From Stieleria varia (GTDB taxonomy: Bacteria; Planctomycetota; Planctomycetia; Pirellulales; Pirellulaceae): DNA of 64,000 nt. The notes beneath the pieces were generated by a model, which ran no database searches, had not been told where the DNA came from, and worked only from the letters and a program-made list of their open reading frames with translations. Location of the stretch: assembly GCF_038443385.1 (NCBI RefSeq), contig NZ_CP151726.1, positions 1,054,001 through 1,118,000 on the forward strand. The letters are read 5' to 3'. A program made the translations under genes and the position numbers. Within the stretch, counting starts at the first letter, position 1. Every line of letters begins with the position of its first letter. Shown here in pieces: positions 1 to 15,960 of the stretch.

Positions 1-3000
1 CAACAATCACTAACCCGGTTTCCGGTGATTCGGTTGTCGGGATGACAACCAACACTGGTGCTTCCTCGATCACTTCATCGGCGGCATCGGCTTCTCTCAA
101 TGAGTCGCCCTCGCCCGGATCGATAGGCTCGGTCGGTGCTGCGGCGATCGCATTGACTGGTGGGGCGATGACGATTGTGACCGTTGCAACATTACTGCTG
201 AGGGCACCGTCAGAGGCTTGCCATTGAAACGTGACGTTTCCAAAAAAGTTGTCTTGCGGCGTGAAGGTAAACGAACCATCCGGACTGAGCTGCAAACTCC
301 CCGTCTCGGGAGCCGTTACCAGTGCGGCGATCAAGTTGGTTGAATCGACATCCGAGCTGGCATTCTGAAACAGCGAGGGTCCGACGACAATCCTGTCTGT
401 GAAGGGCACCGTACGACGGCTGTCTCTGAGCTGAGGCGCGTCATTGACATTGGAAACGGTGATGTCGAATGTCGTCGATGCGAACTGGGGAGGACCGTCG
501 CTGGCGAGGACTTCAATGCTGACGGTCCCCACCGCCGCATTGCCAGGGGTTCCACTAAAGGTTTGCGTGGCAGCATTGAATGTGAGCCAACCAGGCAACC
601 CGCCTCCACCGACGGTGCGTGCGTAGTAGGTGATGGGATCACCATCGGGATCGACGAAGGTTCCAGCCGGTAGAGTGAAGCCAAACGGTTGGTCTTCCAC
701 CGCAAACTGATCACTGGGTGCCGTTTGCAGTTGAACGGGTTGATTGGGGGCCGCGATGGTTGGAGTCGGAGCCGATGTCATCTGTTCCGTCGTTCCCTGT
801 CCATCGAGATAGGTGATTTCAACGGTGATCTGCTGACCGCCATCCGCAGTGGTCAGCACGTAAGTTTGATTGGTCGCCCCGCCGATGATCGTACCGCCGC
901 GATACCACTGAAAACTTGGCGGGGATAAACCGTCGACATCCTGGACGGCTGAGATCACCGCAGTCAACGTCTGTCCAATCTCGATGTTTCCAGAGATAGT
1001 CACGTTCCCCGTGGGGACATCGTTCACACTGGCCACCGGCGGCGTTGATGCAGATGTGAGCGTTTCGGTGAATCCCTGACCGTCCACAAAGCTGACCGTC
1101 ACCGCGATCACTTGTGCCACGTCAGGGTCATCAAGCAAATAAGTCGGGGACGTTGACACGACGGTTCCGCCACGCGTCCATTGAAATCCGAAAGTGCCCA
1201 GTCCATCAGCATCAGTGACTCCAGACGTATCGACCGAAAGAGTCTGATCCTCCGTCGCGGTACCAATGATTAGCGGAGCACCGGTCGCAGCGTCATTCCC
1301 AGCCGTCACATTGCCCGTCGCAGCCGATGTCAGCGATTCGTTGAATCCCTGTCCGTCGGTGAAGTTCAACTCGACACTGATCGGCTGTCCCACATCGTCA
1401 TCACTCAGCGTGTAGGTCGAAGCGGTTGAAACCACTGTCGCGCCGCGTCTCCACTGATAGGTGAATGCGCCCAATCCGTCCGCGTCGGAGATACCAGACG
1501 TATCGACCGAAAGGGTTTGGTTCTCTGCCGCTGAGCCGACAATCACGGGAGCCCCGGTGGCTGGATCATTCACGGCGGTGACGTTACCCGTCGCGGCCGA
1601 CGTCAGCGATTCGCTGAACCCTTGCCCGTCCACGTAGTTCACCACGGCTTGGATGGACTGCCCGACGTCGATGTCGCTCAGAGTGTAAGTCGATGCGGTG
1701 GAGACGACCGTTGTGCCACGCTTCCACAGAAAACTAAAGGTCCCCAATCCGTCCGCGTCAGCGATCGCAGATGTGTTCAGCGAAAGCGTTTCGTTCTCGG
1801 CAATCGTGCCGACGATTACCGGTGCACCGGTTGGAGCATCGTTGGTTTTGGAGACCGAAACACTGCGAGACAGAACGTTGCTCGTGTCGGTACCGTCAAA
1901 GACAGTCACATTCAACGTTCGCGAAGTCAGATCAGGCGTGTCACTGGTGTTTTGAAAGGTGACGTTTCGTAGGGCCGCTTGGTATGCCGCCACGGTGGCA
2001 TTGCCGGATAGGGTCAAGATGCCGGAAACCGCATCCCATGACTTTGTGATCTGAGCGGTGTTCGTGAAATCCAAAATGTCTTGACCGGCCACAAAACCGA
2101 CTAGGCTGATGCTTGCGGATTGCAGATTGGCATCGTCGGAATCGGAAACAGAAAGTGTGGATGAGATCGAAACGGGAATACTGTCTTCCGCAAAACTCAA
2201 CGTCGTCGACTCGATGCCCGAGAGCACGGGCGGTACATTGGCATTGGCATTGGCAATGGAGACGTTGGCTGCAAATTCGGACGTGTTGCCGTTTTGGTCG
2301 GTGACGGTGACGGTGACCGAATCGCCTGACGTGATTCCGGTGCCAGCCAATGTGTGAGAGAAATTCCCCACGCCACCAGGCGTCGTTGTCGTGCTGGTGG
2401 ATCCGAGCCATCGAGACGCTTCGCCGTGACCCGAGAGATCGTTGGTCGAGAGATAAAAGTCGACCACAAAGGTGCTGCTGCCGGTGCTTTTGAACTGCGC
2501 ACTGATATCGAGATCGCCGGACGTATTGATTGCTGCTGATTGAATCTCCGGATAGTTCTGCAATGTATTCGCGCCAGTGTCACTGTCACTGCTGCCATTG
2601 TCATTATTCGTGATCCCGTCATCACCCAGGTCGATTCCAAGATCGCCATTGTCCCGGATCACGTTGAATCGAATCGTGTTGTTGATTCCGGTGCCTGCAA
2701 TCGTGACCCCGTCGGCTTGATTGTTGGCAATCAAGTTCGCATCAGCGAGGCTGCCACCGATCGTCGTCCCATTTCCCAGGACATAAATCCCCGATCCTCC
2801 GTTGGCTTGATCACCCGAATCCGCTCCGGTGAGGGCGTCCAGTCCACCAATCCAGTTGCCCTGAATCGTGTGATTCGCTGAACTGGACGCCGCGATGGTG
2901 ATCCCATTGAGTCCAAAGTCACGGATGACCAAGCCTCGAATCGTGCTGCCGCTGGAGCCATCGGCGAGGACGAGTCCGCTGGCAGCGATGTCGTTGCCCC

Positions 3001-6000
3001 TGAGCACGATGATGGGGCGGTCAACAAAGCTCGGATCGGTGGTGCCGTCGATCATCACCGCACCAGTGATTTCTGGTAGTGCCGCGTTGAGACTGATGAT
3101 GTGCTGAGGACCACCAGCGATGTCAAAAACGATTCGGTCCACGCCGTCTTCATTGGCGGTGTTGTTCGCAGCGATGATGGCTTCGCGTAGCGAAATCTTT
3201 CCATCGGTTCCCTTGTTGGATTCCAACCAGGAAATATCAAAGTCGCTGCGTCCGGTGTCGTTCAGATCGCTGGTCGTATCGACCGTGATGAGTCCTTGAG
3301 ATCGATCCGTCACGGTGATGGTGAATGTTTCATCGAATTGACCGCCGCTGGCATCGGTGACGCGTACAATCACTTCGTAGGAACTCTTGGACTCAAAATC
3401 CAGTACACCAGTCGTCAGAGTCAACTGGTTTCCGTCTGGGCCACCGATTGAAAAGACGGCGGCATCGCCTCCACCAGCGATTTGATAGTTCGCCGTGTCC
3501 AATGCATCAGCATCGGTGGAGGATAGTGTTCCCACCGACAGGCCGCCGGAGGAATCGATTCCTTCACTGACCACAGTATTGCTTAATGAGATCGCAGTCG
3601 GTGCCGAGTTGTTGATGGTCACAGCGACGCCTGCAGAGAACTCTGAGGTGCTGCCATCGGGATGGGTGGCAGTGGCCACTACGAATTGTCCAGCGGCTAC
3701 AGAAGCATCGGTCAAAGTCGCATTGAATGCCTCGTAGCCGAGAAGATCAGGGTTCACGACGATGAACCCCAAGTATGTTTTTCCCTGCCTGTTGTCGGAA
3801 TCGCTCAAGTAGAAATCGATGATGACACCCGGATCCAATTCACCGAAGAACTCTCCCGCCACACTGAGTGTCCCATTGTTGACGGTTGCCGACGTGAGGA
3901 CAGGAAAGTTCTCTAGTCGGTTGACTCCGTCGTCTGTGTCATGGAGGACACCGTAGTCGTTGTCCGTCACGCCATCAGCACCGAGATCGATTCCGATGCC
4001 GCCGTTGTTGTACATCGAGTTTCCGACGATTTCGGCCGCATACAGATCGCCAGACGAAGCGGAGAATCGAATGGCTTCGTTTTGACTGAACGCGATCGTA
4101 TTTGCTTCGCCGGCGCCGATGCCGCCGATCGTGATGTTGCCCCGTAGAAGCATCACCCCACGTGTGTTGCCTAGATCCACCGTTCCTGACTCGTCGGTGC
4201 CGATCCAGTTGCCCTGAACCACCGTTCCGTTCAAAGCGTCTGCCGCATAGCGAATGCCAGTACTGAAACCGCCGATCACATTGCCCGCTCCGGGGGCGGT
4301 TCCACCGATGAGCAAGTTTTCCACGTCTTTCCCGACATGGATGCCGGTGATCGAACCTCGTGCGATACTCTGACCTGTCAGGTCGGGGCCGATCCAGTTC
4401 CCTTGAATCACTGTGTTATTGGATGTGTCATCGACAACGATCCCGGCGATCGAGTTGCCACTGACGACATTTCGATCGGCGATGTCGGTGCCACCGATTC
4501 TCACGTTGTCCGATTTGACGACGTAGATACCGGTTGTGTTCCCACCTGCGTGAACACCGGAAACGTCAATGCCGAGCACGTTGCCTACGATCGTGCTGCG
4601 GTCTGAGATGTCCAGTTTGATTGCGTTCAGATCGGCGCCCACCATGGAGAAACCGCGAACGATGCTGTCGCTACCTTTGAGAACCAACAGATCGGTCAAG
4701 AATGCGTCGGATACATCGAGCACTATGACGGGGGAGCCAATCGCGTATCCGACCTGTGTCGATGCGTCCAGGATGATTTCGCGAGTGACTGTCAAGGTAC
4801 TGCCGAGTTCGATGCGATGAAATCCAGATCCTGCGATGTCAAAGTGGACCTCCTGGATCTGGCCAACGTCATGGGCGTTGATCGCCTGGATTGCTTCGCG
4901 AAGCGAGACACCACCGTCAGAGCCTTGATTGCTCTTGAGAGCTGCAATCGAGCTGACGTCTCCATCGACCACATCGCTGATGTTGGTCACGACGATGATA
5001 TGACTGGTGTCACGTTCCAGTTCAAACGCTCCGATGTCTGCTTCGTCGATCGTGTCACCGTCACCATCGCGTGCTCGAGTTTCACCACGGGCATCGACGG
5101 TCTCGGAGGAAGTCACCGCTGCGTCAATTGCAAAGCTACGAGCGTTCAACGCATGGGTCTGAACAAATCCACCGTTGTCCGCAAGCGTTTCCAGAAGTGC
5201 AGAGTGACCGAGAATGTCGCTGGCTTGAAAACCTGTGACCCCCGCCGTGTCGGCGATCAGGTTGAAACCCAAGGAGTTGTACGTGCTGCCATACACGTCG
5301 TTGGATTGAGAAGCGGAGTTGTCAGAAACGATGGTCGACGTCAGCGTGACGCTTGCTCCCTGAACCGAGATACCGCCACCAATCGCCGCTTGATTGAAGG
5401 CCAGCGTCGTGTGAGTCAAGGACGCGTTGGCTCGGCTGTGAATGCCGCCACCGGAGCCCTGGGCGGTGTTGCCGCTGATGGTGACGTTGGTGAGGTCCAG
5501 GCTTGTGGCCAGTGATCCGTTGGCAATGGCACCGCCATTTGCTTGTGACGCGTTGTCACTGAGTGTGACCGACTGTAGCGTAGCAATGCCTTGGTTTTGA
5601 ATCGCACCCCCATCGTCGACGGCAGTGTTTTGAGACAAAGTCACGTTTGTCAGTGCCAGTGTTCCGGCATTCGAAATCGCGCCGCCGACACCAGCGGCGT
5701 GGTTACCATCGATCACGACTTGGTCGGCAACCACACCTCCCGCCGCAGCAACTCGTACCGCCCCGCCATCGGACGACGCATTGCCGCTGATTAGTTTCAG
5801 GTTTTCAATCTCCAATGTGCCCGAGTGCACATCAAAGATTCGATCGATTCCCTGACCAGAGATCGCTGTGTCCAGAGTACCGGTCCCGGCGATGGTCAAG
5901 TCGTGAGAGATGTCAAAGTCGCCTGCGAAATCACCTTCACCCCCGATCGCCAATCCATGGGTGCCAGCGCCAAGTTCGATCCTGTCGCCACTGCTGCTCT

Positions 6001-6868
6001 GCAAGATCGCTTCGCGAAGTGACAACAGGCCGTCACCCGCGTCGACCACGTCCGCTGTGGTTGTCACCGTGATGGTGTTGAGTTTGATCAGCAAGTCGTC
6101 TTGCAGAGACTGAGAGACAACAACGGTTGTGGCGACGTTGCCGGTGGCGTACTCGAGCAACCAGTCGGCACCGTAGCTGTCGTGTCCGGTATCGTTGGTG
6201 CTGGCGTTGACATCGGCATCGGTCAACGCAGCGATCGAGTCGAGGAACGTTCGTCCCGAATCATTTCCGGCCAAGTCGCAGCCGTAAAAGAGCAAATCCG
6301 CGCCACTAGACAACGCGGCGTTCCAGGATGCGATCTCGCCCGCATAGCCGCTTAAGTTAGATTCACCCAGCCACACGTTGCCGAGCTTGACTTGACCACT
6401 CTCGCCGTGCGAGATCACGTGCAGCGAATCGATCGAGTTTCGTCCGTCCAAAATGTCGCTGATCTGTTGAACTCCGTCCTGACGGGAGTCCAACACGAAT
6501 ACCTCCAGGTCTCGATCCGAGCCGGCAAAGTCATCGAGCAACTGCTGCAGGTGAGGGACGGACGCGTCAATGATCACGATCTCGCGGAGATGCTGACTCG
6601 TCTGCGCATCCGAGAGTAATGAATCCGTCTGAGAAGCAATGGTGCTGTCGATTTCCGCAACCATTGCACCGCAGTCGCTTTCGGCGGAATCCATCAACGC
6701 AGGATCAATGGGCGTCGCGCTGAAAAGCACCCGTGGCTCCAACGCATCGAGTCGCGGCGCATTTTGGACGTCCGACAAAGAACGAGGATTCCAAGGTCCG
6801 ATTGCCCAAAAGAGACGATCAAGGGAAGTCACGCAGCGCTGCATCCAGGGAGCTGGGGTGCGGGTCAT
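1..6868 (-). CDS. Giant LEPR-x-LL / DUF4347 surface protein with beta-helix and repeat modules (3' end outside window)
   Basis: One minus-strand frame stays open from the ATG at 6866-6868 to the left edge, at least 2,289 codons, so the protein is C-terminally partial. Residues about 43-49 read LEPRVLF, the planctomycete LEPR-x-LL N-terminal motif. Residues about 95-250 match DUF4347 (HVISHGESG, FYGCDLAG). Then follow long right-handed beta-helix-like stretches (repeated GNxIG, xxVxGNW, NNTI patterns) with three SLREAI motifs as in CSLREA domains, cadherin-like segments, and near-identical 91-residue repeats close to the left edge. Low lysine, high Asp/Thr/Ser/Gly suits a secreted or cell-surface adhesin. 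An in-frame ATG at 6923-6925 could add 19 residues; neither start has a clear Shine-Dalgarno site. It is divergent from the putative export operon at 7180-15960. Domain assignment is by pattern recognition; function (surface or adhesive) is inferred. Confidence 0.85.
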   Translation of the reverse strand, partial: MTRTPAPWMQRCVTSLDRLFWAIGPWNPRSLSDVQNAPRLDALEPRVLFSATPIDPALMDSAESDCGAMVAEIDSTIASQTDSLLSDAQTSQHLREIVIIDASVPHLQQLLDDFAGSDRDLEVFVLDSRQDGVQQISDILDGRNSIDSLHVISHGESGQVKLGNVWLGESNLSGYAGEIASWNAALSSGADLLFYGCDLAGNDSGRTFLDSIAALTDADVNASTNDTGHDSYGADWLLEYATGNVATTVVVSQSLQDDLLIKLNTITVTTTADVVDAGDGLLSLREAILQSSSGDRIELGAGTHGLAIGGEGDFAGDFDISHDLTIAGTGTLDTAISGQGIDRIFDVHSGTLEIENLKLISGNASSDGGAVRVAAAGGVVADQVVIDGNHAAGVGGAISNAGTLALTNVTLSQNTAVDDGGAIQNQGIATLQSVTLSDNASQANGGAIANGSLATSLDLTNVTISGNTAQGSGGGIHSRANASLTHTTLAFNQAAIGGGISVQGASVTLTSTIVSDNSASQSNDVYGSTYNSLGFNLIADTAGVTGFQASDILGHSALLETLADNGGFVQTHALNARSFAIDAAVTSSETVDARGETRARDGDGDTIDEADIGAFELERDTSHIIVVTNISDVVDGDVSSIAALKSNQGSDGGVSLREAIQAINAHDVGQIQEVHFDIAGSGFHRIELGSTLTVTREIILDASTQVGYAIGSPVIVLDVSDAFLTDLLVLKGSDSIVRGFSMVGADLNAIKLDISDRSTIVGNVLGIDVSGVHAGGNTTGIYVVKSDNVRIGGTDIADRNVVSGNSIAGIVVDDTSNNTVIQGNWIGPDLTGQSIARGSITGIHVGKDVENLLIGGTAPGAGNVIGGFSTGIRYAADALNGTVVQGNWIGTDESGTVDLGNTRGVMLLRGNITIGGIGAGEANTIAFSQNEAIRFSASSGDLYAAEIVGNSMYNNGGIGIDLGADGVTDNDYGVLHDTDDGVNRLENFPVLTSATVNNGTLSVAGEFFGELDPGVIIDFYLSDSDNRQGKTYLGFIVVNPDLLGYEAFNATLTDASVAAGQFVVATATHPDGSTSEFSAGVAVTINNSAPTAISLSNTVVSEGIDSSGGLSVGTLSSTDADALDTANYQIAGGGDAAVFSIGGPDGNQLTLTTGVLDFESKSSYEVIVRVTDASGGQFDETFTITVTDRSQGLITVDTTSDLNDTGRSDFDISWLESNKGTDGKISLREAIIAANNTANEDGVDRIVFDIAGGPQHIISLNAALPEITGAVMIDGTTDPSFVDRPIIVLRGNDIAASGLVLADGSSGSTIRGLVIRDFGLNGITIAASSSANHTIQGNWIGGLDALTGADSGDQANGGSGIYVLGNGTTIGGSLADANLIANNQADGVTIAGTGINNTIRFNVIRDNGDLGIDLGDDGITNNDNGSSDSDTGANTLQNYPEIQSAAINTSGDLDISAQFKSTGSSTFVVDFYLSTNDLSGHGEASRWLGSTSTTTTPGGVGNFSHTLAGTGITSGDSVTVTVTDQNGNTSEFAANVSIANANANVPPVLSGIESTTLSFAEDSIPVSISSTLSVSDSDDANLQSASISLVGFVAGQDILDFTNTAQITKSWDAVSGILTLSGNATVAAYQAALRNVTFQNTSDTPDLTSRTLNVTVFDGTDTSNVLSRSVSVSKTNDAPTGAPVIVGTIAENETLSLNTSAIADADGLGTFSFLWKRGTTVVSTASTYTLSDIDVGQSIQAVVNYVDGQGFSESLTSAATGNVTAVNDPATGAPVIVGSAAENQTLSVDTSGISDADGLGAFTYQWRRGATVVSTASTYTLSDDDVGQPISVELNFTDGQGFNESLTSAATGNVTAGNDAATGAPLIIGTATEDQTLSVDTSGVTDADGLGTFGFQWTRGGTVVSTSPTYLLDDPDVAQVIAVTVSFVDGQGFTETLTSASTPPVASVNDVPTGNVTISGNIEIGQTLTAVISAVQDVDGLSPPSFQWYRGGTIIGGATNQTYVLTTADGGQQITVEITYLDGQGTTEQMTSAPTPTIAAPNQPVQLQTAPSDQFAVEDQPFGFTLPAGTFVDPDGDPITYYARTVGGGGLPGWLTFNAATQTFSGTPGNAAVGTVSIEVLASDGPPQFASTTFDITVSNVNDAPQLRDSRRTVPFTDRIVVGPSLFQNASSDVDSTNLIAALVTAPETGSLQLSPDGSFTFTPQDNFFGNVTFQWQASDGALSSNVATVTIVIAPPVNAIAAAPTEPIDPGEGDSLREADAADEVIEEAPVLVVIPTTESPETGLVIV
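755..1834 (-). repeat. Tandem 91-residue (273-bp) protein repeats in the giant gene
   Basis: Three consecutive units, 1562-1834, 1289-1561 and 1016-1288, are each exactly 273 bp and encode a module beginning (P/A)TGAP(V/L)I(V/I)G and containing DADGLG, a Q/L-W-x-RG segment, VVST.STY.L and DGQGF.E(S/T)LTSA. A fourth, diverged unit lies at about 755-1015 (DVDGLSPPSFQWYRGG). The exact period and high identity point to recent tandem duplication of an Ig-like/cadherin-like module. Confidence 0.9.
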
Positions 6869-7179
6869 GGCGAATATGCGGAGTGGGCTGTTTGAGCGTT
6901 CAGGAGTGATCGGAATGCAACGCATCGTTCGGCTGCTGATGCAACAGCTGAATCGTAGGTAATGGCAATGATGCACCCTGGATCGTTCACTTCGCATTTG
7001 CCGCTACAGACCACCAACCAATCTGAATCTTCCGGTTGAAGCGTTTTTCTGTGCCCGTCAGTCAACGGACACTCGCTTTGGCTGAAACCGGCTGTACGTA
7101 ATCCGACACGGAGGTCGATCCTCCGACCATCGGGTCTGTCCATCGGATCGGCTCGTTTTCCCGGTTTTGCTGTGTCAGG
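6869..7179. promoter_or_regulatory. Divergent intergenic region between giant gene and export operon
   Basis: About 310 bp separate the start of the minus-strand giant gene from the plus-strand TolC-like gene. Promoters for both units should lie here. I see no convincing -35/-10 pair, operator palindrome or RNA gene. A minus-strand open frame (6865-7209) has no recognisable protein features and I treat it as chance. Confidence 0.4.
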
Positions 7180-9240
7180 ATGACCCACTACAGGCCGGCG
7201 AACGCTCAATTGTTGTCATTGGATGGAATCTTGACTGGGCCACTGTGCTTGCCTATCGACCAAACCCAGAGGGGACCGGTGCGCCGGAACACCCCCGACG
7301 GTGGCGCTGCGTCCCGGCAACCCCGCAATGGGATTCGCCAGAATTCCCTTCCCAAGCTCTCTTGGCCGTTCGCGTTGGCACTCACCCTGTTCCTCAACGC
7401 AACAGCGTGCCCTCACGTGACCGGTCAATATTCGCTACCCCAACCACTAGCCGAACCATCTGACCTGATGGTGCAGCATCATGGCACCAGCACGATGCTG
7501 CCCAACGTGCCTGTTCCGATCCCCCACGGACCCTACGACGGATACTTGGACTCGTATCGAAGCCGGGCATTCGAGTTGCCAAACGATGCCCCCAATCAAA
7601 TCGATTGGGGACAAATCATCGGCAGTCAACAGTCGGACGATGTTTCAGGCTTGTCGACCATCGACGCTGTGATTGAATCGTTGCCACTGCAGATGTGGTG
7701 GGACGAGCGAATGCAGAATCAGATCGGCTTGTCCGATCAAACCTATCCGGTGGATGTCGGCACCCTGGCTCAAATCGCGTTGCTTTCGTCTCCACGAGTG
7801 CAATCACTGTTGGCCACACCACACATTCGACAGTCGGATGTCGTGGTGGCTGATGCTGAGTTTGATCCAACGTTGTTTTTGGAGGGCAAGTACAGCGACG
7901 CCAATGACCCTGTCGGTAGCACCCTGACGACCGGAGACGGCTCGACACGTTTTCGTGATGAAACGCTGACTTCTGCGTTGGGTGTCCGCAGCAAGAACCG
8001 AGCGGGTGGCGAGCTGGATCTTTCACAGCGCGGTGGGTTTCAAGAAAACAACTCGTTGTTTTTGACGCCCAATCCGCAAGGCACCACACGACTGGAGCTG
8101 AACTACACGCACCCGCTGATGCGTGACGGTGGCCAAGCCGTCAACCGAACACGGATCGTTCTGGCTCAATTGGATTGGAAGGTCAGCCGGACGGAAACAC
8201 GCCAGGAGCTGGAGAATCACCTGCTGGCGGTAACGGAAGCATATTGGAATCTCTACGAAGCACGCGTTCATTGGTTGCAGCAACAGAAGCTGATCGCCAG
8301 TGCCAGCCGGCTTTATGAAATATTGTGGGCGCGTCGCGATGTGGATTCTCATCAACGTCAGATCTTGCGTGCACAGTCGGCACTGACGAGCCGCAAGTCC
8401 GAGTTGGCACGTGCGGCAACTCGAATCAAGAACGCTCAGGCGCAGATCCGGATGCTGACAGGCAGCGCAGAATTGCTGAATGTTTCGTCATGGGAATGGA
8501 CGCCGATCGATCGTCCTTTGGCGATTCCGGTCGCGGCCAACGTCCGTCAATCGGTGATCGAAGCGTTGGAGAATCGCGCCGATGTCACGCAAGCGATTCG
8601 AAAGATTCAAGCGGTATCGACAAAAGTCGGCGCGGCAAAGAACCAGGTGCTGCCACGTTTGGATTTGATCCTCGGTGCCTACGTGGCCGGACTGGACAGT
8701 GATCGAAACACCTTCGGCGCGTTTGGCAACCAATTCAGCGAAGGCCGTCCGGGCTACTCGATGGGGATGCTCTACGAGTTGCCCGCCGGCAGACGTGCTT
8801 CGCTGGCCCGCCTGAACCGAACCCGCTGGGAGATGACGCAGGCGATCGCGGACTTTCAACAGACCACTGAAACGGTGTTCACGGAGGTCGAGATTGCGGT
8901 TCGCGAAACCGAAACGCTCTACAACGAGATGGTAGCTAAAAAACTCGCGATCGACGCGGCCGAATCAGAAGTCAGCTTTCTGACACAGCGTTGGGAGCAA
9001 CTGCCCAATCCTAATGAGTCCGCCATCGTCTTGATAGAAAGTCTGTTGACCGCGCAAGAAAGGTTAGCAGACGAAGAATCAGCAATGATTGAGGCGCAGA
9101 TCGATTACGCCATGGCGTGGGTTCGTTTACGAAAGGTCAGCGGCATCCTGTTGCGTGTCGACACGATGATGCCAGAAACGGGACAAGCCGAAATCGTCGC
9201 CCAAGATACTTCCTGCTCAGAGACCGGGGGCCAACCATGA
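7180..9240 (+). CDS. TolC-like outer membrane efflux protein
   Basis: A 686-residue protein expected to form an outer-membrane, periplasm-spanning channel. After a long N-terminal stretch there is a hydrophobic segment at about residues 64-80 (LSWPFALALTLFLNATA) resembling a signal peptide, so the true start may be a downstream alternative codon. The rest has the OEP pattern: two long helical hairpins rich in Ala/Glu/Arg/Gln (TRQELENHLLAVTEAYWNLY; ETLYNEMVAKKLAIDAAES) and short beta segments such as RLELNYTHPLMRDGG. Its TGA overlaps the ATG of the SecA-like gene (ATGA). It is the first gene of a five-gene operon with three HlyD-type proteins, which fits a tripartite exporter. The family call is firm; the substrate is unknown. 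Confidence 0.85.
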   Translation: MTHYRPANAQLLSLDGILTGPLCLPIDQTQRGPVRRNTPDGGAASRQPRNGIRQNSLPKLSWPFALALTLFLNATACPHVTGQYSLPQPLAEPSDLMVQHHGTSTMLPNVPVPIPHGPYDGYLDSYRSRAFELPNDAPNQIDWGQIIGSQQSDDVSGLSTIDAVIESLPLQMWWDERMQNQIGLSDQTYPVDVGTLAQIALLSSPRVQSLLATPHIRQSDVVVADAEFDPTLFLEGKYSDANDPVGSTLTTGDGSTRFRDETLTSALGVRSKNRAGGELDLSQRGGFQENNSLFLTPNPQGTTRLELNYTHPLMRDGGQAVNRTRIVLAQLDWKVSRTETRQELENHLLAVTEAYWNLYEARVHWLQQQKLIASASRLYEILWARRDVDSHQRQILRAQSALTSRKSELARAATRIKNAQAQIRMLTGSAELLNVSSWEWTPIDRPLAIPVAANVRQSVIEALENRADVTQAIRKIQAVSTKVGAAKNQVLPRLDLILGAYVAGLDSDRNTFGAFGNQFSEGRPGYSMGMLYELPAGRRASLARLNRTRWEMTQAIADFQQTTETVFTEVEIAVRETETLYNEMVAKKLAIDAAESEVSFLTQRWEQLPNPNESAIVLIESLLTAQERLADEESAMIEAQIDYAMAWVRLRKVSGILLRVDTMMPETGQAEIVAQDTSCSETGGQP

Positions 9241-11204
9241 GACGATTCGATGAGCCTTTGGATCGGACAGAAGTCGCCACGCGTGTCGCCCGAAATCTGA
9301 GTCGCGACAGATGGTTGGAATCGATCATCTCACTGGCTCGGCAGCGTGCAAAGGTGATCCGAGGCATGTCCGCCGAGCAGCTCAGACAAGAAACCGTTCG
9401 GCTCAGAATTCCGGGTACCGTCCTGGACGTTCAACGCGTTGCCATGGCGACTGCTGCGGTGATCGAGGCGGTTCGCCGTGTTCAGGCAGTGGAGCTATTC
9501 GACACGCAACTGAGAGCCGGTTTGATCGTCGGGTGCGGCGCGATCGCGGAGATGCAAACCGGCGAAGGAAAGACGTTGGCCGGGGTCATTCCCGCTTACC
9601 TCCACTCGCTCTCCGGACGTGGTGTGCATGTTGCCACGACCAACGCCTATCTTGCTCGGCGGGATCATCAGCTACTCAGCCCGATCTTTCAATGTTTGGA
9701 TGTGTCCGCTGGGTTGGTGGAGGATGAAGCAGACTTTCGAACGACTCAAATGGCTTATCGATGTGATGTGACCTTCGGATCAGGTTATGCATTTGGTTTT
9801 GATTACATGCGCGACCAACTTGCCCTGCGAGCGGCTTCCGCGGTGGAGTTGGGCACCACCACGCTCCATCGCATCCACGGCTTTGATACCCACGAACTGC
9901 TACGGCAACGTGGATTGAATGTGGCGATCATTGACGAAGCCGATCAGGTGATGATCGACGACGCCGTCTCGCCCCTATTGCTCAGCGGTCCACGTTCGCA
10001 GAAGCCCGCCGATGCCGAGGTCCATCTCGCGGCGTTGACGATGGTTGAAAAAATGCGATTCGGAGACGACTTTCGCATCGATCAGTTGGTGCGAGCGATC
10101 ACCTTGACCGATGAAGGTCACCGAAAGGTGTACAGCAACAGACGAATGACGATGCATCATGCCTTGATGCGTCCTTGGCACGAGTACGTTGCCTTGGCAT
10201 TGAAGGCCAAGCATCTGGTACACCGAGACGTCCACTACATCGTCAGTGGTCAAGAAATCCAAATCGTCGATGAATCCACCGGCAGGATCTTTAGCGATCG
10301 CACTTGGTCTGACGGACTGCATCAGGCAGTCCAAGCCGCAGAGGAGTTGCCGATCACGGCCGAAACACGCGCGTTGGCAAAGATCACCCGCCAACGCTTC
10401 TTTCGCCTCTACGGAACACTGGGCGGCATGACCGGGACGGCAGATGGCTGTCAGACGGAGTTCGAATCGATCTATGGAACGCCCGTGGTTCGGGTGCCTA
10501 CTCGCAACCCCAATCGTCGCGTGGTTTTCCCGACCCGCATCTGTCGCAATGCCAACGAAAAGGCGATCGCAATCGCTGCGGAAACAGAAGAAATGCTGCG
10601 TGCAGGTCGGGCGGTGTTGATCGGGACGCACAGCATCGCGCAAAGTGAGTTGATCGTCGCGGCGATGACGCAACGATCCATTCCGGTGCGGTTGCTCAAT
10701 GGCGTGCAGGATGAAAGCGAAGCGGAGATCATCGCCCGAGCTGGCGTCGAGGGAGCCGTCACGGTGGCCACAAACTTGGCCGGACGCGGTACCGACATTC
10801 GGCTCGATGATGCGGTTGCACGACGCGGCGGTTTGCATGTGATTGTTTCTCAACACCACCCGATGGCTCGGGTGGATCGCCAGATGATCGGTCGGGCCGC
10901 CAGATGCGGAGACCCCGGCAGCGCCAGCTTCTACATAGCTGCAGATGACGAATGGATCCAACAGCACGCACCTTGGTTGGCTCGGACCGTTCGTCACATC
11001 ACCGACAGCGGGATGGTGCCTGGTCAGTCGTTGGATCGCCATGTCGCACGTGCACAACGTCGCTGCGAGATCGCTGCTGCACAAGCCCGGCATCAACTGC
11101 TCAAACGTGACGAAGAAGCGATCGCGTTGATGCGAGCGCCGACTTTCCTTTCCAGGCTCCTGTCCAAATTCGGTGTCAAAGAGTCAGATCGGAGCGCCCG
11201 ATGA
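9237..11204 (+). CDS. Short SecA-like preprotein translocase ATPase (accessory SecA paralogue)
   Basis: 655 residues from the ATG at 9237, chosen because it forms an ATGA overlap with the preceding stop; the frame is open further upstream. SecA motifs appear in order: MQTGEGKT (Walker A, about 106-113), TFGSGYAFGFDYMRD, IDEADQVMIDDA (DEAD-like Walker B, about 232), GGMTGTA, VATNLAGRGTDI, and an IGRAARCGDPGS arginine-finger region. Canonical SecA is about 830-900 residues. Here the chain ends shortly after the second nucleotide-binding domain, so most of the helical wing/scaffold and the C-terminal zinc-binding CxC motif are missing, and the preprotein cross-linking region looks short. Sitting between TolC and HlyD genes is unusual for SecA. 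I infer a specialised motor for export of particular substrates. Confidence 0.9.
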   Translation: MRRFDEPLDRTEVATRVARNLSRDRWLESIISLARQRAKVIRGMSAEQLRQETVRLRIPGTVLDVQRVAMATAAVIEAVRRVQAVELFDTQLRAGLIVGCGAIAEMQTGEGKTLAGVIPAYLHSLSGRGVHVATTNAYLARRDHQLLSPIFQCLDVSAGLVEDEADFRTTQMAYRCDVTFGSGYAFGFDYMRDQLALRAASAVELGTTTLHRIHGFDTHELLRQRGLNVAIIDEADQVMIDDAVSPLLLSGPRSQKPADAEVHLAALTMVEKMRFGDDFRIDQLVRAITLTDEGHRKVYSNRRMTMHHALMRPWHEYVALALKAKHLVHRDVHYIVSGQEIQIVDESTGRIFSDRTWSDGLHQAVQAAEELPITAETRALAKITRQRFFRLYGTLGGMTGTADGCQTEFESIYGTPVVRVPTRNPNRRVVFPTRICRNANEKAIAIAAETEEMLRAGRAVLIGTHSIAQSELIVAAMTQRSIPVRLLNGVQDESEAEIIARAGVEGAVTVATNLAGRGTDIRLDDAVARRGGLHVIVSQHHPMARVDRQMIGRAARCGDPGSASFYIAADDEWIQQHAPWLARTVRHITDSGMVPGQSLDRHVARAQRRCEIAAAQARHQLLKRDEEAIALMRAPTFLSRLLSKFGVKESDRSAR

Positions 11205-12094
11205 AATTCCTGAAGGGCAATTCTTTGATTCCCCGGCTCGCGATCGTGTTGGCTGTCGTCTGTGTGACGTACACCGGTTCCCGTACGATAGCCGCCGATC
11301 TGGAGGGCTACACCGAACCCTATCGCAACGTTGCCGTCGCCTCACCAGAGATCGGAGTGATCGAGTCGTTGGCGGTAGAGGAAGGCGATCATGTCGGCAA
11401 AGGACAATTATTGATTCAGATGGAGGACTCCGTGCTACGGGCCAGTATGGCTGTCGCGCGCGCTGCGATGGACTCCACCGGTCGCGTCAGCGAGGCCGAA
11501 GCTGATCTGCAGGCCAAGCGAGATCAACTGGACAGCTACAAGGCCTTGATCGAGCGCGGAAATGCCACTCAGCGAGAGCTCGATCGTGCCAAGGAAGCGG
11601 TCTTAGTGAGCGAGTCTCGTTTGCAAAGCATCCGCGAAGAAATGCACGTCCGGAAACTGGAATTTCAACGCGCCGAAGCTCAATGGAAACTCCGGCAGAT
11701 CACTTCGCCCCTGGACGGCGTGGTCGTATCGATCGCCAAGCGTTCGGGTGAGTTTGTCGCGCCCACGGATCCGGTGATCCTGCAAGTCGCCCAGTTGGAT
11801 CGGCTGAGCGTCGTTTTCTCCGTTCCCATTTCACAAGCGGATGGATTGGCCGATGATCAAACCGTGTCTCTGCGAGTCGGTCGGGATCTGGTGGTTACCA
11901 AAGGAACGATCGAATACGTGTCGCCGCTGACGGACCCGCAAAGCGGGTCACGCAGAGTTCGAATACGCATCGAAAACTCCGACTTGGCGTTGTCAGGCGG
12001 CGTGGTCTGTCGATGGGATCTCAATCATGCACCTTCGACAGATCCGAGTATCCGACGTCAAGCAACTCGTGGCCCCGTTCGATCGCTCTGGTAG
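11201..12094 (+). CDS. HlyD-family periplasmic adaptor
   Basis: 297 residues, ATG at 11201 overlapping the previous stop (ATGA). An N-terminal signal or anchor (LIPRLAIVLAVVCVTYTGS) is followed by a biotinyl-lipoyl-like half (GVIESLAVEEGDHVGKGQLL), a coiled-coil hairpin (about residues 75-155, SEAEADLQAKRDQLDSYKAL), the second lipoyl half (ITSPLDGVVVS) and a beta-barrel. This is the layout of RND/ABC membrane-fusion proteins, joining an inner-membrane component to a TolC-type channel. It is short for the family, and the C-terminal tail is basic and probably disordered. The neighbours supply the matching outer-membrane protein and two further HlyD-type proteins, but no ABC or RND transporter. 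Confidence 0.85.
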   Translation: MKFLKGNSLIPRLAIVLAVVCVTYTGSRTIAADLEGYTEPYRNVAVASPEIGVIESLAVEEGDHVGKGQLLIQMEDSVLRASMAVARAAMDSTGRVSEAEADLQAKRDQLDSYKALIERGNATQRELDRAKEAVLVSESRLQSIREEMHVRKLEFQRAEAQWKLRQITSPLDGVVVSIAKRSGEFVAPTDPVILQVAQLDRLSVVFSVPISQADGLADDQTVSLRVGRDLVVTKGTIEYVSPLTDPQSGSRRVRIRIENSDLALSGGVVCRWDLNHAPSTDPSIRRQATRGPVRSLW

Positions 12095-12100
12095 TCCAGC

Positions 12101-13588
12101 ATGACTCTCGATTCGGACAACACGACTCACGGCGGTTCCGGCGATCACAAGATCGCATCGGAACCGTTGTTCGTTTTGCCGACGGGACACACAACAGGTC
12201 GCAAAACGGGTGACGCCAAGTCGACCGGGGCACCCTCACCGATGGCGGACTCGGAGGCTGCCAAGCTGCTCGCAGCGGCACTGGAGTTGATCAGCAGTCT
12301 GGATCAACATGACCAGTTCGCATCCGCGGCGTCGACCACCGCTGCATCCATTGCGAATTGGCTCAGTTGTCCTCGCGTCGTGCTTGCTTGGCAGCCCCGT
12401 CCCGATTCGCCTCTGCAAATTTGCGGTGACACGGCGACTGCGGACAGTACTACACTGCTGGCCGCGGCGGACGAGATCTCGGCGCGTGGATCGTTAACGG
12501 ATTCTGGTTCGACCGATCCGAGCCAACGCCATTCGCTGATGGCCGTCAAACAGTTCGCAAAGGCCGCGGCCTGCAAACGCGTCTTGGGTGTCGCGTTGCA
12601 GGATCGAGATCAGCGTGGCGGCGCGTTGTTGCTGTGTTATGACCGTGCGATCTCGGAGAGCCAAGCCGCCACGACGCTACGTTGTCTCGACGCGGTGCGA
12701 GTGCCGTTGGCGGGAAAGCTGGCGGCGATCGATCGAAATCAGCCCGGTCGATTTCGACAATGGATGCTTGCCTGGTCCGATGCAAAGTATCATGAGAAAC
12801 ACAAGTGGTTGATCGCAGGAATCGTGCTCGTCGGTACCCTGCTGTGCTTTCCAGTCACCTATCACGTCGCGGCAGATTGTCGGCTGCAACCCGTGCTGCG
12901 TCGCTACGTAGCGACGCCGATCGACGGACCGTTAGAAAAGGTCTATGTGCGACCTGGTGACGAAGTCCAGTCGGGTGACTTGTTGGCTAAGATCAATTCA
13001 CGAGAAATCAACTATCAACTGGCGGCCAAGGAAGCAGACCGCGAACGATTGGCGGCCAAGCTGAAGGGACAACGCGCCCGTCAGGAGTTCGCAGAGAGCA
13101 CGCTGACCGAGCTGGAACTGCAAAGCGTGCAACTGGAGATTGATCTGCTGTTGCATCAACGCTCACATTTGGAGATCAGAAGCCCTCTGTCGGGAATGGT
13201 GGTCAGCGGCGATCTGGAACGCAGCGAAGGGATTCCGCTTCGCAAAGGTGACACGTTGATGGAGATCGCTCCGTTGACACAGATGGTCGTCGAAATCTCA
13301 GTTCCCGAAAGCGAGTTGACTCACGTCGAGTCGGGAATGCTCGCTCGATTTCAGCTCTACGCGTTGCCCGGTCAATCGTTGGACGCGACCATTGGCACCG
13401 TTCATCCGGCGGCGGAGTTGATTGACAACGAAAACGTTTTTGTCGCCGAAGCCGTGGTCGAGGACTCGGATGGCTTGCTCCGTCCTGGGATGAAGGGGCG
13501 TGTGTGGGTACGCAGTGATAAGAAAACGATCGCGTGGATCGCCTTCCACAGGGCCTATCATGCGGTCCGCCGCTCAGTGGGGTGGTGA
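12101..13588 (+). CDS. GAF-like domain / transmembrane / HlyD-type adaptor fusion
   Basis: 495 residues. Residues about 52-210 look like a cytoplasmic GAF-type sensor (alternating helices and strands, LEL..SL at the start, GVALQDRDQRGGALLLCYD near the end). One transmembrane helix follows at about 236-253 (WLIAGIVLVGTLLCFPV). The periplasmic part is HlyD-like: a lipoyl half (GPLEKVYVRPGDEVQSGDLL), a short coiled coil (about 315-370) and the second half (IRSPLSGMVVSGDL), then a beta-barrel and a C-terminal basic stretch. The fusion would let a cytoplasmic signal reach a periplasmic adaptor. The start is 6 bp after the previous stop, and the stop overlaps the next gene. HlyD part firm; GAF call moderate. 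Confidence 0.8.
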   Translation: MTLDSDNTTHGGSGDHKIASEPLFVLPTGHTTGRKTGDAKSTGAPSPMADSEAAKLLAAALELISSLDQHDQFASAASTTAASIANWLSCPRVVLAWQPRPDSPLQICGDTATADSTTLLAAADEISARGSLTDSGSTDPSQRHSLMAVKQFAKAAACKRVLGVALQDRDQRGGALLLCYDRAISESQAATTLRCLDAVRVPLAGKLAAIDRNQPGRFRQWMLAWSDAKYHEKHKWLIAGIVLVGTLLCFPVTYHVAADCRLQPVLRRYVATPIDGPLEKVYVRPGDEVQSGDLLAKINSREINYQLAAKEADRERLAAKLKGQRARQEFAESTLTELELQSVQLEIDLLLHQRSHLEIRSPLSGMVVSGDLERSEGIPLRKGDTLMEIAPLTQMVVEISVPESELTHVESGMLARFQLYALPGQSLDATIGTVHPAAELIDNENVFVAEAVVEDSDGLLRPGMKGRVWVRSDKKTIAWIAFHRAYHAVRRSVGW

Positions 13589-13593
13589 CGCCG

Positions 13594-15960
13594 ATGACTC
13601 GTTATGCGAAACGCCAAGGCCGGCCGCCTGAACAAGAGATCTACGTCGAGTATCCTCGCCGATCCGATCACGACCAATCCGACGGACTCTTGGATACCGT
13701 TGATTTGAATCAAAGTCCCGTGCGAGTGGCCGATGACGTCATCGTGTGGCCGACCCTATCGCAAGGCCGGCGTGTGTATCGGCTGGAGATACCGACACTG
13801 CATCGCTACTACGAAATCGGCTCCAGCGAGTATGTCTTTCTGTCGCTCTTGGACGGCAGCAATACGCTGGCGCAGGCTTGTGGGCTCGCCGCCGCACAGC
13901 TTGGTAATGAGGCCATCACGTCAGAGCAAGCCGAGTCAATGGTCCGGTGGTTGCTCGATGAACAACTGGCGTACTTGCCCGACAGCGGCACTCCGACTCG
14001 CGATGCCAAAACGAGCGGCGATGTGCCCCACACAAAATTGTTGATGGGCAAACAGTCGGCGCTGCTGAAACGCTTCAATCCGTTTTGGATCAAGCTGCCG
14101 TTGATGAAACAAGGCGGGCGTGGCGCTGCCGCGTTGCAACGGCTGGGCGGGACCTTTGGTTGGTTGTTTGCAACCATCCCATTGCTGTTCGGATGCGTGT
14201 TGATCGTGATCGCTGGCATCAGCTTGTGGATTCACGGATTGAGCGTCCTGCAACCGGCCAAAACGCTGTTCAGTCCTGACAACTGGTTTTGGCTGCTGGT
14301 GACATGGGTGTTGCTGAAACTGATTCACGAAACCGCTCACGCAGCAGCATGTCATCGTGTCGGTGGCGTGGTTCGTGAAATGGGTGTCGTGTTGGTCTTG
14401 CTGGCGCCGATGGCCTACGTCGATGTCAGCAGTGTTTGGCGAATCGCGTCACGCCGCAAGCGAATGTTGGTCTCCGCCGCGGGCGTGTATGTCGAATGGG
14501 TCATCGCGTCGGTTGCCCTGATGCTGTTGCTGAGCATCGACGCACCGCATTGGCAATGGATGCTCAACAACATTGCGTTGACCGCCGGGGTGTCGACTTT
14601 TTTATTCAACGCAAACGTCTTGATGAGGTTCGATGGTTACTACGTGCTGTCGGATTGGGTTCAGATCCCCAACTTGTACACGCAATCACAGGGCGAGTTG
14701 AAGCGGTTGGTACAGCGTTACGCGTTTGACATGCCGACGCACTCTGGGCGGACCAGTGGCTGGCGATGGTGGTTTTGTGTTTTTTACGGGATTGCCGCGT
14801 TGATTTGGAAAGTGTTGGTGTGCACCACGCTGATCATCGCTGCGTCGACGATGTTTGCCGGCGCGGGCGTGGTGCTGGCAGTCTTGGGCGGCGGCATGTG
14901 GATTGGGCAACCCGCGTTCCGCTTCATTCGATTCGCGCGAGAACAATGGCGTTTTGATCGAGCCCGGTTGGTGCGAGCAGCGGCGGCTGTGGTGGGGTGC
15001 TGTGTCATGACCATGGCGATCTTGCTCTGGATGCCGATCCCGACGTCGGTTCGGTTTCACGGGGTCGTCACGTACGCCAGCCAAACGATCGTCCGCAGCG
15101 GCGTGGATGGATTTGTGACCGACGTTCACGTTGCGGATCGACAACGGGTGCGCAGCGGCGACTTGCTGCTTGAGATCGAGAACCAAAGTTTGTTGACCGA
15201 GATCTCTCAGTTGAAACTCTTGCTGGAGGAGAACCAGTGGCGACGTCGAGCGGCCAACGATCGACACGATCCCTCGACGTTGGGAGTCTTGGATGCCAAA
15301 GCGGATTCCTTGGAAAAGCAAATCGCGGAATTGCAAGCAAAAGCGGCGACCTTGCGTTTGCTGGCACCGCGAGACGGGATCGTGGTTGCACGCAATTTGC
15401 GTTCACGATTGGCGACGTTTGTCCGAGAAGGTGACGAGTTGATGGCAATCGTCGGCGAGGGTGAACGCGAAGTCACCGCTTTGATTCATCAGGACGATAT
15501 CCATTTGGTCAGAGCACAGTTGGGCAAACCGGTTCTGGTGACCGATCCCGGCGACACGCTGTATCAAGGCACTTTGGTGAGGATTGAGCCGCGGGCCTCA
15601 CACCGGTTGACGCATCCTGCATTGGCGGCGACCCGGAACGGTCCACTGAGCGTGGAGCAAGCCGATCAGGAGCCCGATCAGGAGCCCGATCAGCGGGCCG
15701 ATCAGCAGGCTGAGTTGCAGTTGAGCGACGCGTACTTTACGGCCCGCGTGACGCTGGATTCCAGACCTGATGGCGTCGCTTCGCGGCTCGATTGGCCAGC
15801 AGAGCATTCCATGGATGACGTCATCGGATCACAAAAAGCCTTGGCATCTGGGATGCGAACCGTTATTCATGCGGGATACCGTAGTGATTCTCTGAGTCGA
15901 CGATTGCAAATCGCGATCGAGCGGCTTTGGTATCAGGCTGCGCAACGGGAGGAAAGATAG
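13594..15960 (+). CDS. PqqD-like / M50 site-2-type metalloprotease / HlyD fusion
   Basis: About 788 residues from ATG 13594; a GTG at 13585 overlapping the previous stop (GTGA) would add three residues and is equally plausible. Residues about 45-125 resemble a PqqD/winged-helix peptide-binding domain (LHRYYEIGSSEYVFLSLLDG). Several membrane segments carry the M50 zinc site HETAH (residues 245-249) and the second motif FDGYY (346-350). After more membrane helices the C-terminal periplasmic part is HlyD-like (GFVTDVHVADRQRVRSGDLL; LRLLAPRDGIVVA). This architecture is known from proteins linked to peptide modification and export. I infer intramembrane processing of the substrate coupled to the adaptor. 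A Gln/Asp/Pro-rich loop built from 12-bp repeats interrupts the barrel. Last gene of the operon. Confidence 0.88.
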   Translation: MTRYAKRQGRPPEQEIYVEYPRRSDHDQSDGLLDTVDLNQSPVRVADDVIVWPTLSQGRRVYRLEIPTLHRYYEIGSSEYVFLSLLDGSNTLAQACGLAAAQLGNEAITSEQAESMVRWLLDEQLAYLPDSGTPTRDAKTSGDVPHTKLLMGKQSALLKRFNPFWIKLPLMKQGGRGAAALQRLGGTFGWLFATIPLLFGCVLIVIAGISLWIHGLSVLQPAKTLFSPDNWFWLLVTWVLLKLIHETAHAAACHRVGGVVREMGVVLVLLAPMAYVDVSSVWRIASRRKRMLVSAAGVYVEWVIASVALMLLLSIDAPHWQWMLNNIALTAGVSTFLFNANVLMRFDGYYVLSDWVQIPNLYTQSQGELKRLVQRYAFDMPTHSGRTSGWRWWFCVFYGIAALIWKVLVCTTLIIAASTMFAGAGVVLAVLGGGMWIGQPAFRFIRFAREQWRFDRARLVRAAAAVVGCCVMTMAILLWMPIPTSVRFHGVVTYASQTIVRSGVDGFVTDVHVADRQRVRSGDLLLEIENQSLLTEISQLKLLLEENQWRRRAANDRHDPSTLGVLDAKADSLEKQIAELQAKAATLRLLAPRDGIVVARNLRSRLATFVREGDELMAIVGEGEREVTALIHQDDIHLVRAQLGKPVLVTDPGDTLYQGTLVRIEPRASHRLTHPALAATRNGPLSVEQADQEPDQEPDQRADQQAELQLSDAYFTARVTLDSRPDGVASRLDWPAEHSMDDVIGSQKALASGMRTVIHAGYRSDSLSRRLQIAIERLWYQAAQREER
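15664..15711 (+). repeat. Four 12-bp in-frame tandem repeats
   Basis: Four consecutive 12-bp units beginning GATCAG encode DQEP, DQEP, DQRA, DQQA inside the HlyD-like part of the M50 fusion. In-frame expansion gives a hydrophilic loop and is probably length-variable between strains. Confidence 0.9.

Follow-up and report, generated by a model that had tools for sequence, protein, structure and literature searches.

The window analysed here, 64,000 nucleotides (64 kb) of Stieleria varia (contig NZ_CP151726.1, positions 1,054,001 to 1,118,000), carries an operon for a TolC-family channel, a short SecA, an HlyD adaptor, a GAF-HlyD-type adaptor and a membrane protein with PqqD-like, M50 and HlyD parts (M50-HlyD below). 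Divergent from it lies a gene for a giant protein with an N-terminal LEPR-XLL leader. The sequence-only reading of this DNA expected the operon genes to co-occur with LEPR-XLL/DUF4347 genes, and in both Planctomycetota and Gammaproteobacteria they do so far more often than chance would give, whether judged by gene position or by genome content. The operon is probably a one-step exporter of proteins in which an N-terminal LExR-x-LL leader replaces the Sec signal peptide, with the adjacent giant as its likely local substrate. This type of locus was known before; the new part is the link between the operon and LEPR-XLL giants. The features concerned are as follows.

1..6997, minus strand: giant substrate candidate, 2,513 amino acids (aa) in its full open reading frame (ORF), the 3' end lying beyond the window at genome position 1053456
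6101..6580, minus strand: DUF4347, predicted clan CD/CPD-like cysteine-protease fold (E 6.5e-50; His and Cys invariant in 39 sequences)
6723..6742, minus strand: LEPRVLF leader motif (DALEPRVLFSATPI, residue 86 of the longest ORF; model NF012209, 23.7 bits, cut-off 17)
6998..7179, no strand: divergent intergenic region of 182 bp between giant and operon, from the ORF bounds
7180..9240, plus strand: TolC-family outer-membrane channel (Pfam OEP)
9237..11204, plus strand: short SecA, 655 aa from the ATG at 9237 (SecA_DEAD, PPXD and P-loop; GEGKT and DExD motifs intact)
11201..12094, plus strand: HlyD/CzcB-type periplasmic adaptor (Pfam HlyD)
12101..13588, plus strand: GAF-HlyD-type adaptor (GAF matched in relatives only)
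13585..15960, plus strand: PqqD-like/M50/HlyD membrane protein (HExxH and a later DG aspartate invariant in 20 aligned members)

The five genes form a tight unit. As read from the letters alone, they are coupled by ATGA at 9237-9240 (TolC/SecA), ATGA at 11201-11204 (SecA/HlyD), a 6-bp gap (HlyD/GAF-HlyD) and GTGA at 13585-13588 (GAF-HlyD/M50-HlyD); the ORF coordinates bear this out, with an alternative M50-HlyD start at the ATG at 13594. The divergent giant with LEPRVLF near its N-terminus was likewise confirmed by NF012209 and DUF4347 matches. The domain names first given to the operon proteins stood in part. Pfam returned OEP for the channel, SecA_DEAD, P-loop_SecA and SecA_PP_bind for the short SecA, and HlyD. 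The Peptidase_M50 match stayed under the Pfam cut-off (20.3 vs 27.2 bits), and GAF and PqqD domains were not detectable in the window's own copies, so that these two labels rest on relatives. GAF was matched in four of seven relatives of the fourth protein (three of the four above the Pfam cut-off), PqqD in 11 and Pfam M50 in 19 of the 20 aligned members of the fifth family, all at E <= 0.05. Residues H245, E246, H249 and D347, which correspond to the M50 HExxH motif and the second-site aspartate, are invariant across these 20 members. The AlphaFold model of M50-HlyD (mean predicted local distance difference test score, pLDDT, 78.5) has long helices and matches the fold of MacA/MexA adaptors; its N-terminus, with strands followed by helices, was read as PqqD-like and itself gave no fold match.

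The short SecA gave no Pfam SecA_SW match. SecA_SW includes the two-helix finger with which SecA acts at SecYEG. In a quick tree of 60 SecAs with long branches, the short SecAs branch apart from 21 canonical rows. As had been stated beforehand, the operon encodes no ABC or RND transporter: no ABC transporter was found among its genes by Pfam or recognised by eye in the large flanking ORFs (the whole genome was not searched), nor did Pfam and the ORF list show an inner-membrane pump of the RND or MFS type among the operon genes.

The association with the leader was studied in 294 Planctomycetota genomes. Of these, 40 scored above the NF012209 cut-off for LEPR-XLL and 39 were identifiable; counting the fortieth as a miss changes nothing. 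A SecA was called short when its open frame, among the matches listed, had at most 760 aa, and G222 and G058 were left out as cut or too long. The resulting count of 39 short-SecA genomes is approximate, as the length rule missed a SecA in G004 with an 880-aa frame. Bit score was rejected as a way to tell short SecAs from canonical ones, since SecAs of 870-900 aa from other families score equally high. Both elements occurred in 26 genomes, short SecA only in 13, LEPR-XLL only in 13 and neither in 242 (p 3e-18). In the same order, the counts were 23/7/11/169 by genus and 13/3/8/68 by family (p 4e-8), the latter meaning that LEPR-XLL was present in 13 of 16 families with a short SecA vs 8 of 76 others. 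Genome size was also considered. The association was stronger in genomes below 5 Mb (15/1/6/176, p 7e-17) than in those of at least 5 Mb (11/12/7/66, p 2e-4). DUF4347 proved a weaker partner (9/30/10/245). The proposed LEPR-XLL/DUF4347 substrate class was therefore only partly upheld: because only 9 of 39 short-SecA genomes have DUF4347, it was rejected as the defining feature of the substrate, and LEPR-XLL was kept as the general partner.

The neighbourhood of the short SecA points in the same direction. In total, 43 loci of up to 20 kb (three of them under 20 kb) were chosen by short-SecA match, the window included, and compared with 38 loci picked at random (fixed seed) in 21 of these genomes. 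A strict pattern, LE[PDSEQTGAKN]R.[LM][LMF], located in the first 150 residues of an ORF of at least 250 aa, was written after the first loci had been seen. It was found at 16 of the 43 short-SecA loci vs one of the 38 random loci (p 9e-5). The comparison is conservative: the genome's own third copy and a giant of G107 (LEQRIMLDA) count as misses because their N-termini lie outside the locus. The same pattern indicates that NF012209 overlooks leaders of this class. Of the 13 short-SecA genomes that the model does not match, six (G048, G238, G181, G205, G121 and G266) show a strict-pattern gene in the SecA locus. As for false matches, the model scored above its cut-off in one of 14 control genomes.

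The genome of the window itself (9.72 Mb, a single contig) holds 11 DUF4347 genes and three clade-I modules made of SecA, HlyD, GAF-HlyD and M50-HlyD, with a TolC gene at the window copy only. The two other modules are located as follows.

869659-876316: second module, without adjoining TolC
3679164-3686355: third module, without adjoining TolC

All three stand directly beside a DUF4347 giant (2,513, 7,016 and 7,869 aa) with no gene between. At the second module, the 7,016-aa giant (leader LESRVLMSA) begins 61 bp past M50-HlyD, and at the third, the 7,869-aa giant (leader LEDRVLFDA) ends at the SecA start. The chance that all three modules lie within 10 kb of a DUF4347 gene is about 3e-5.

The exceptions to the SecA association were informative on the core of the system. 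Among LEPR genomes without a short SecA, 9 of 13 have M50-HlyD, as do five of six genomes that lack a short SecA but match DUF4347 strongly. Together, this gives 14 of 19 vs 3 of 54 control genomes, G024 among the three, that lack a short SecA, an above-cut-off LEPR match and DUF4347 (p 2e-8). M50-HlyD was also present in 27 of the 28 short-SecA genomes tested (15/15 with LEPR, 12/13 without; G071 was the miss), about a dozen of which had themselves contributed rows to the alignment used for the search. The LEPR and M50-HlyD genes are about 1 kb apart in G199 and G173. At loci of G005 and G094 (L249 and L250), a DUF4347 protein with the leader LEERIVLDA stands beside TolC, HlyD-type proteins and M50-HlyD; profile search found no SecA there, and no ABC transporter was among the 10 ORFs run against Pfam. 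M50-HlyD is thus the constant core, and SecA is usually, not always, encoded beside it. The role of SecA as the energy source, which the sequence-only reading had assigned to it, is accordingly not established. In G004 (C263:910-5027), the SecA with the 880-aa frame adjoins an M50-HlyD gene; SecAs of these modules are perhaps not always short. Several genomes (G238, G034, G137, G194, G048, G069, G181 and G227) have at least three M50-HlyD matches each, some far from a short SecA, as if several such exporters were present in one genome.

The linkage extends to other phyla. The 80 named M50-HlyD loci considered, the best 80 of at least 583 and many of them cut by contig ends, come from Planctomycetota, Verrucomicrobiota, Gammaproteobacteria, Desulfobacterota, Saprospiraceae and Fibrobacter. 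They contain SecA in 39 cases, a strict LEPR gene in 16 and a DUF4347 gene in 19, and in 22 of the 80 a LEPR or DUF4347 gene lies within about 10 kb. One example is Methylomonas sp. LW13 (L202), where a DUF4347/LExR gene is grouped with genes for GAF-HlyD, M50-HlyD, SecA and HlyD. DUF4347 occurred in none of the 38 random loci, which are planctomycete only and do not come from the genomes of the 80 loci. Outside the planctomycetes, 20 of 35 genomes of the M50-HlyD set have DUF4347, a count that is not independent as some loci had already been seen with it, vs 24 of 229 Gammaproteobacteria above the cut-off. For the contingency tables, the centre genome G306 was removed, which leaves 228 Gammaproteobacteria. 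Given as both, M50-HlyD only, partner only and neither, the counts were 19/11/10/188 with LEPR (p 3e-13) and 17/13/7/191 with DUF4347 (p 1.5e-12). Some NF012209 matches in these genomes lie in frames below 250 aa, and the LEPR counts become 19/11/3/195 when frames of at least 500 aa, plus one cut contig, are used. M50-HlyD and DUF4347 share a contig in 8 of the 18 Gammaproteobacteria genomes with both (G306 counted); in seven of these, about 6 kb or less separates the matches, and in G434 M50-HlyD is about 13 kb beyond the giant.

Several results nevertheless weigh against an exporter of leader-bearing proteins. No strict LEPR gene is in view at 27 of the 43 SecA loci, a looser LExR pattern gives no significant excess (17/43 vs 9/38, p 0.16), and the position test becomes weaker when collapsed by genus (11/27 vs 1/16, p 0.017). 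Four of the 13 LEPR genomes without a short SecA also lack M50-HlyD, and the three control genomes above carry M50-HlyD with neither partner. In G005 and G094, the module goes without a recognisable SecA. In the genome of the window, 8 of the 11 DUF4347 genes are away from any module, and further LEPR genes also lie elsewhere. On the other side stands the linkage of the module to giants with the same tag in very different bacteria, which makes it likely that the giants are the cargo and the tag the address label.

The leader is the candidate signal. The consensus of 41 distinct leaders is hExLExRx[LM][LF][SD][AG]; a G051 contig supplied one of them, and loci picked for their short SecA or M50-HlyD the other 40. 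L, E, R and the following hydrophobic residues are fixed by the search pattern itself, and positions free of it are nonetheless conserved: E at -2 (33/41), S or D at +7 (35/41) and A or G at +8 (40/41). In 37 of the 38 cases that could be measured, the 45 residues ahead of the leader are without a signal-peptide-like hydrophobic stretch (Kyte-Doolittle, 15 aa, threshold 1.6); as start codons are uncertain, this describes the ORFs rather than mapped N-termini. LEPR proteins beside clade II SecAs (L087 and L104) have Golvesin_C and fn3 domains, one also an amidase domain, and not DUF4347; the passengers therefore vary while the leader stays constant. The eight unlinked DUF4347 proteins of the window's genome (L039, L041 and L240-L245) differ in their leaders, seven having LExRx[ML]LA[GA]D and one LEQRILLSGD. 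The comparison with LExRVL[FM][SD]A suggests two leader classes with different reading machinery.

Most simply, the system would be a tripartite exporter whose inner-membrane part is M50-HlyD, usually with a SecA-type ATPase, and not an ABC or RND pump. The PqqD-like domain of M50-HlyD, the PPXD clamp of SecA or both would bind the leader. ATP hydrolysis of the SecA type would then pass the chain, still unfolded, to the M50-HlyD membrane part, where the M50 site may remove the leader or another membrane segment; substrate cutting is inferred from the conserved catalytic residues. HlyD, GAF-HlyD and TolC would take the chain over the periplasm and the outer membrane, and DUF4347, where present, may process the exported chain as a protease-like domain. 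A more far-reaching proposal, possible rather than probable in our view, is that Planctomycetota, Verrucomicrobiota, Gammaproteobacteria and Desulfobacterota share a separate type of one-step secretion. There, a SecA-derived motor without the SecY-pushing parts would deliver giants to a membrane protease-adaptor fusion, which would read and cut the N-terminal LExR-x-LL leader through a domain of the type found with ribosomally synthesized and post-translationally modified peptides (PqqD-like) before export by HlyD and TolC.

Other explanations have to be considered. The giants could cross the inner membrane by SecYEG and the housekeeping SecA, the module acting from the periplasm by means of HlyD and TolC and the short SecA serving as a regulator or chaperone. 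The loci without SecA would fit such a division of labour, as would the absence of SecA_SW matches from the short SecAs. On the contrary, the missing hydrophobic stretch ahead of 37 of 38 leaders is not what a Sec signal peptide would look like, and the ATPase motifs are retained in 27 short SecAs from three clades, so that this explanation is considered unlikely. Less likely still is a shared lifestyle, in which large genomes of surface-attached, biofilm-forming bacteria hold both the module and LEPR proteins while the module exports a peptide, glycan or lipid. PqqD, M50 and HlyD parts are indeed typical of peptide maturation and export, the NCBIfam daptide protease model reaches 138 bits on M50-HlyD (below its cut-off of 300), and some LEPR genes are far from modules. 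A common lifestyle does not, however, account for direct adjacency over distant groups, in the genome of the window without an intervening gene, or for an association that is stronger, not weaker, in small genomes.

A factor outside the module, e.g., a separate sortase-like or chaperone system, might also read the leader and mark proteins for a shared later step. The four LEPR genomes without M50-HlyD and the variant leader of the seven unlinked DUF4347 proteins agree with this, but the presence of M50-HlyD in 9 of 13 LEPR genomes without a short SecA, compared with 3 of 54 controls, makes it very improbable. An exporter specific for leader-bearing proteins accordingly remains the preferred explanation.

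The locus was described by Kamneva, Poudel and Ward (2015; PMC4452313), with SecA, HlyD, GAF-HlyD and M50 proteins and no ABC transporter. In their proposal, SecA takes over from the ABC transporter as ATPase, and the M50 protein may form a pore. The arrangement with a SecA-like energy source, taken to be new when the sequence was first read, had hence been published (PMC4452313). The window operon belongs to this type, having SecA_DEAD without a wing-scaffold and HlyD, GAF-HlyD and M50 neighbours; the published locus likewise has a SecA without the wing-scaffold and sometimes OEP. The difference lies in the partner, as a LEPR/DUF4347 protein is named here and none in that paper's main text. 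The biological role was called "completely unknown", sections 16-17 of that paper make no substrate proposal, and a term search of its main text gave no occurrence of LEPR or DUF4347 (PMC4452313). In the open-licence literature searched, no paper was found that links LEPR-XLL or DUF4347 to this locus or gives the export route of LEPR-XLL proteins. For a locus whose role was left open in 2015, the operon-LEPR link puts forward a definite substrate, a possible signal and a central component. Some LEPR-XLL proteins are among the longest ORFs met here, with up to about 13,000 aa. If the exporter reading is true, they would leave the cell through an exporter that runs on neither an ABC nor an RND pump, and a simple sequence tag would predict many giant exported proteins.

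Type I secretion handles very large repeat proteins as cargo, which carry no N-terminal Sec signal. The present system resembles the HlyB-HlyD-TolC type in its TolC channel and HlyD adaptors and in its candidate cargo of very large repeat proteins without an N-terminal Sec signal. In contrast to it, the operon has no ABC transporter and has an extra M50 protease and SecA-like ATPase, and the candidate signal is N-terminal, whereas the type I signal is C-terminal; a C-terminal hydrophobic motif is found only in some giants. SecA2 accessory Sec systems serve dedicated large substrates and share with the operon the possession of a second SecA. The window short SecA nonetheless scores far below the cut-offs of the SecA2 equivalog models (373-480 vs 725-1100 bits) and lacks a SecA_SW match, no SecY2 is encoded in the operon, and the coupling is to HlyD and TolC. 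From an RND or MFS tripartite pump, the operon differs by having no such pump at the inner membrane.

Besides its leader and DUF4347, the window giant contains choice-of-anchor Q and other repeat regions, cadherin/Ig-like domains and, at the C-terminus, a hydrophobic segment with an acidic tail. DUF4347 is predicted to form a His-Cys dyad on a caspase-like fold (clan CD/CPD-like); in all 39 sequences, the SHG His and the YGC Cys are invariant. Its model has a pLDDT of 94, and the three fold matches at E <= 0.001 are Tce1 (the best, template modelling (TM) score 0.59) and caspase-3 (TM about 0.4). Besides further caspases and legumain, the weaker matches take in flavodoxins and dehydrogenases. 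When DUF4347 was searched against solved structures, seven matches came back, with de novo barrels at the top and only one entry (9qpe_G) that bears the DUF4347 name. In the passages concerned, Tce1 is identified as PA0256, a DUF4347 carrier (PMC8262886), and is proposed as a cysteine protease with a CPD-like dyad (PMC13323088). The family and the proposed His-Cys dyad are thus held in common, whereas DUF4347 is here the N-terminal domain of a giant behind a LExR leader and Tce1 is cargo of a type VI secretion system. In the giants, DUF4347 may have a self-processing role. Elsewhere, a Vibrio protein of about 8,000 aa is described with an N-terminal LEPR-XLL and C-terminal RTX/serralysin domains (PMC10868602), and LEPR-XLL appears as a passing annotation (PMC9611531).

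A hydrophobic C-terminal motif, W-x-[LV]-[RQ]-GG followed by [LM]PxW and DPxxxL, was noticed in the window giant (L006:8456-15997), in two others of the same genome (876378-897428 and 6753071-6760249, the latter L243) and in a G238 giant (L251:5986-15672), with an acidic tail after it in three of the four. It resembles a membrane hairpin and is a possible second processing site. As a general signal it was rejected, being absent from the giant of the genome's third module and from the G107 and G051 giants. Found in two module-linked giants and one unlinked giant of this genome and one giant of G238, it is an optional feature.

Further observations were made in the same genome. A LEPR-XLL protein of 10,563 aa (7540521-7572212, minus strand) lies far from the modules found, next to genes whose products resemble, on inspection by eye, a sigma factor and a kinase. 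A fourth short SecA (5681218-5683386; L246:9218-11386) has no HlyD or M50 partner in the 20 kb read and is located 288 bp upstream of a gene for a 1,187-aa protein with a secretin domain. At two loci, the gene past the giant encodes a sensor (L006:5499-8432, minus strand, and genome positions 897515-899983, plus strand). One locus has a hybrid histidine kinase with Hpt and the other a PAS-GGDEF-HD protein, and their N-termini look alike by eye, as if one input served two outputs.

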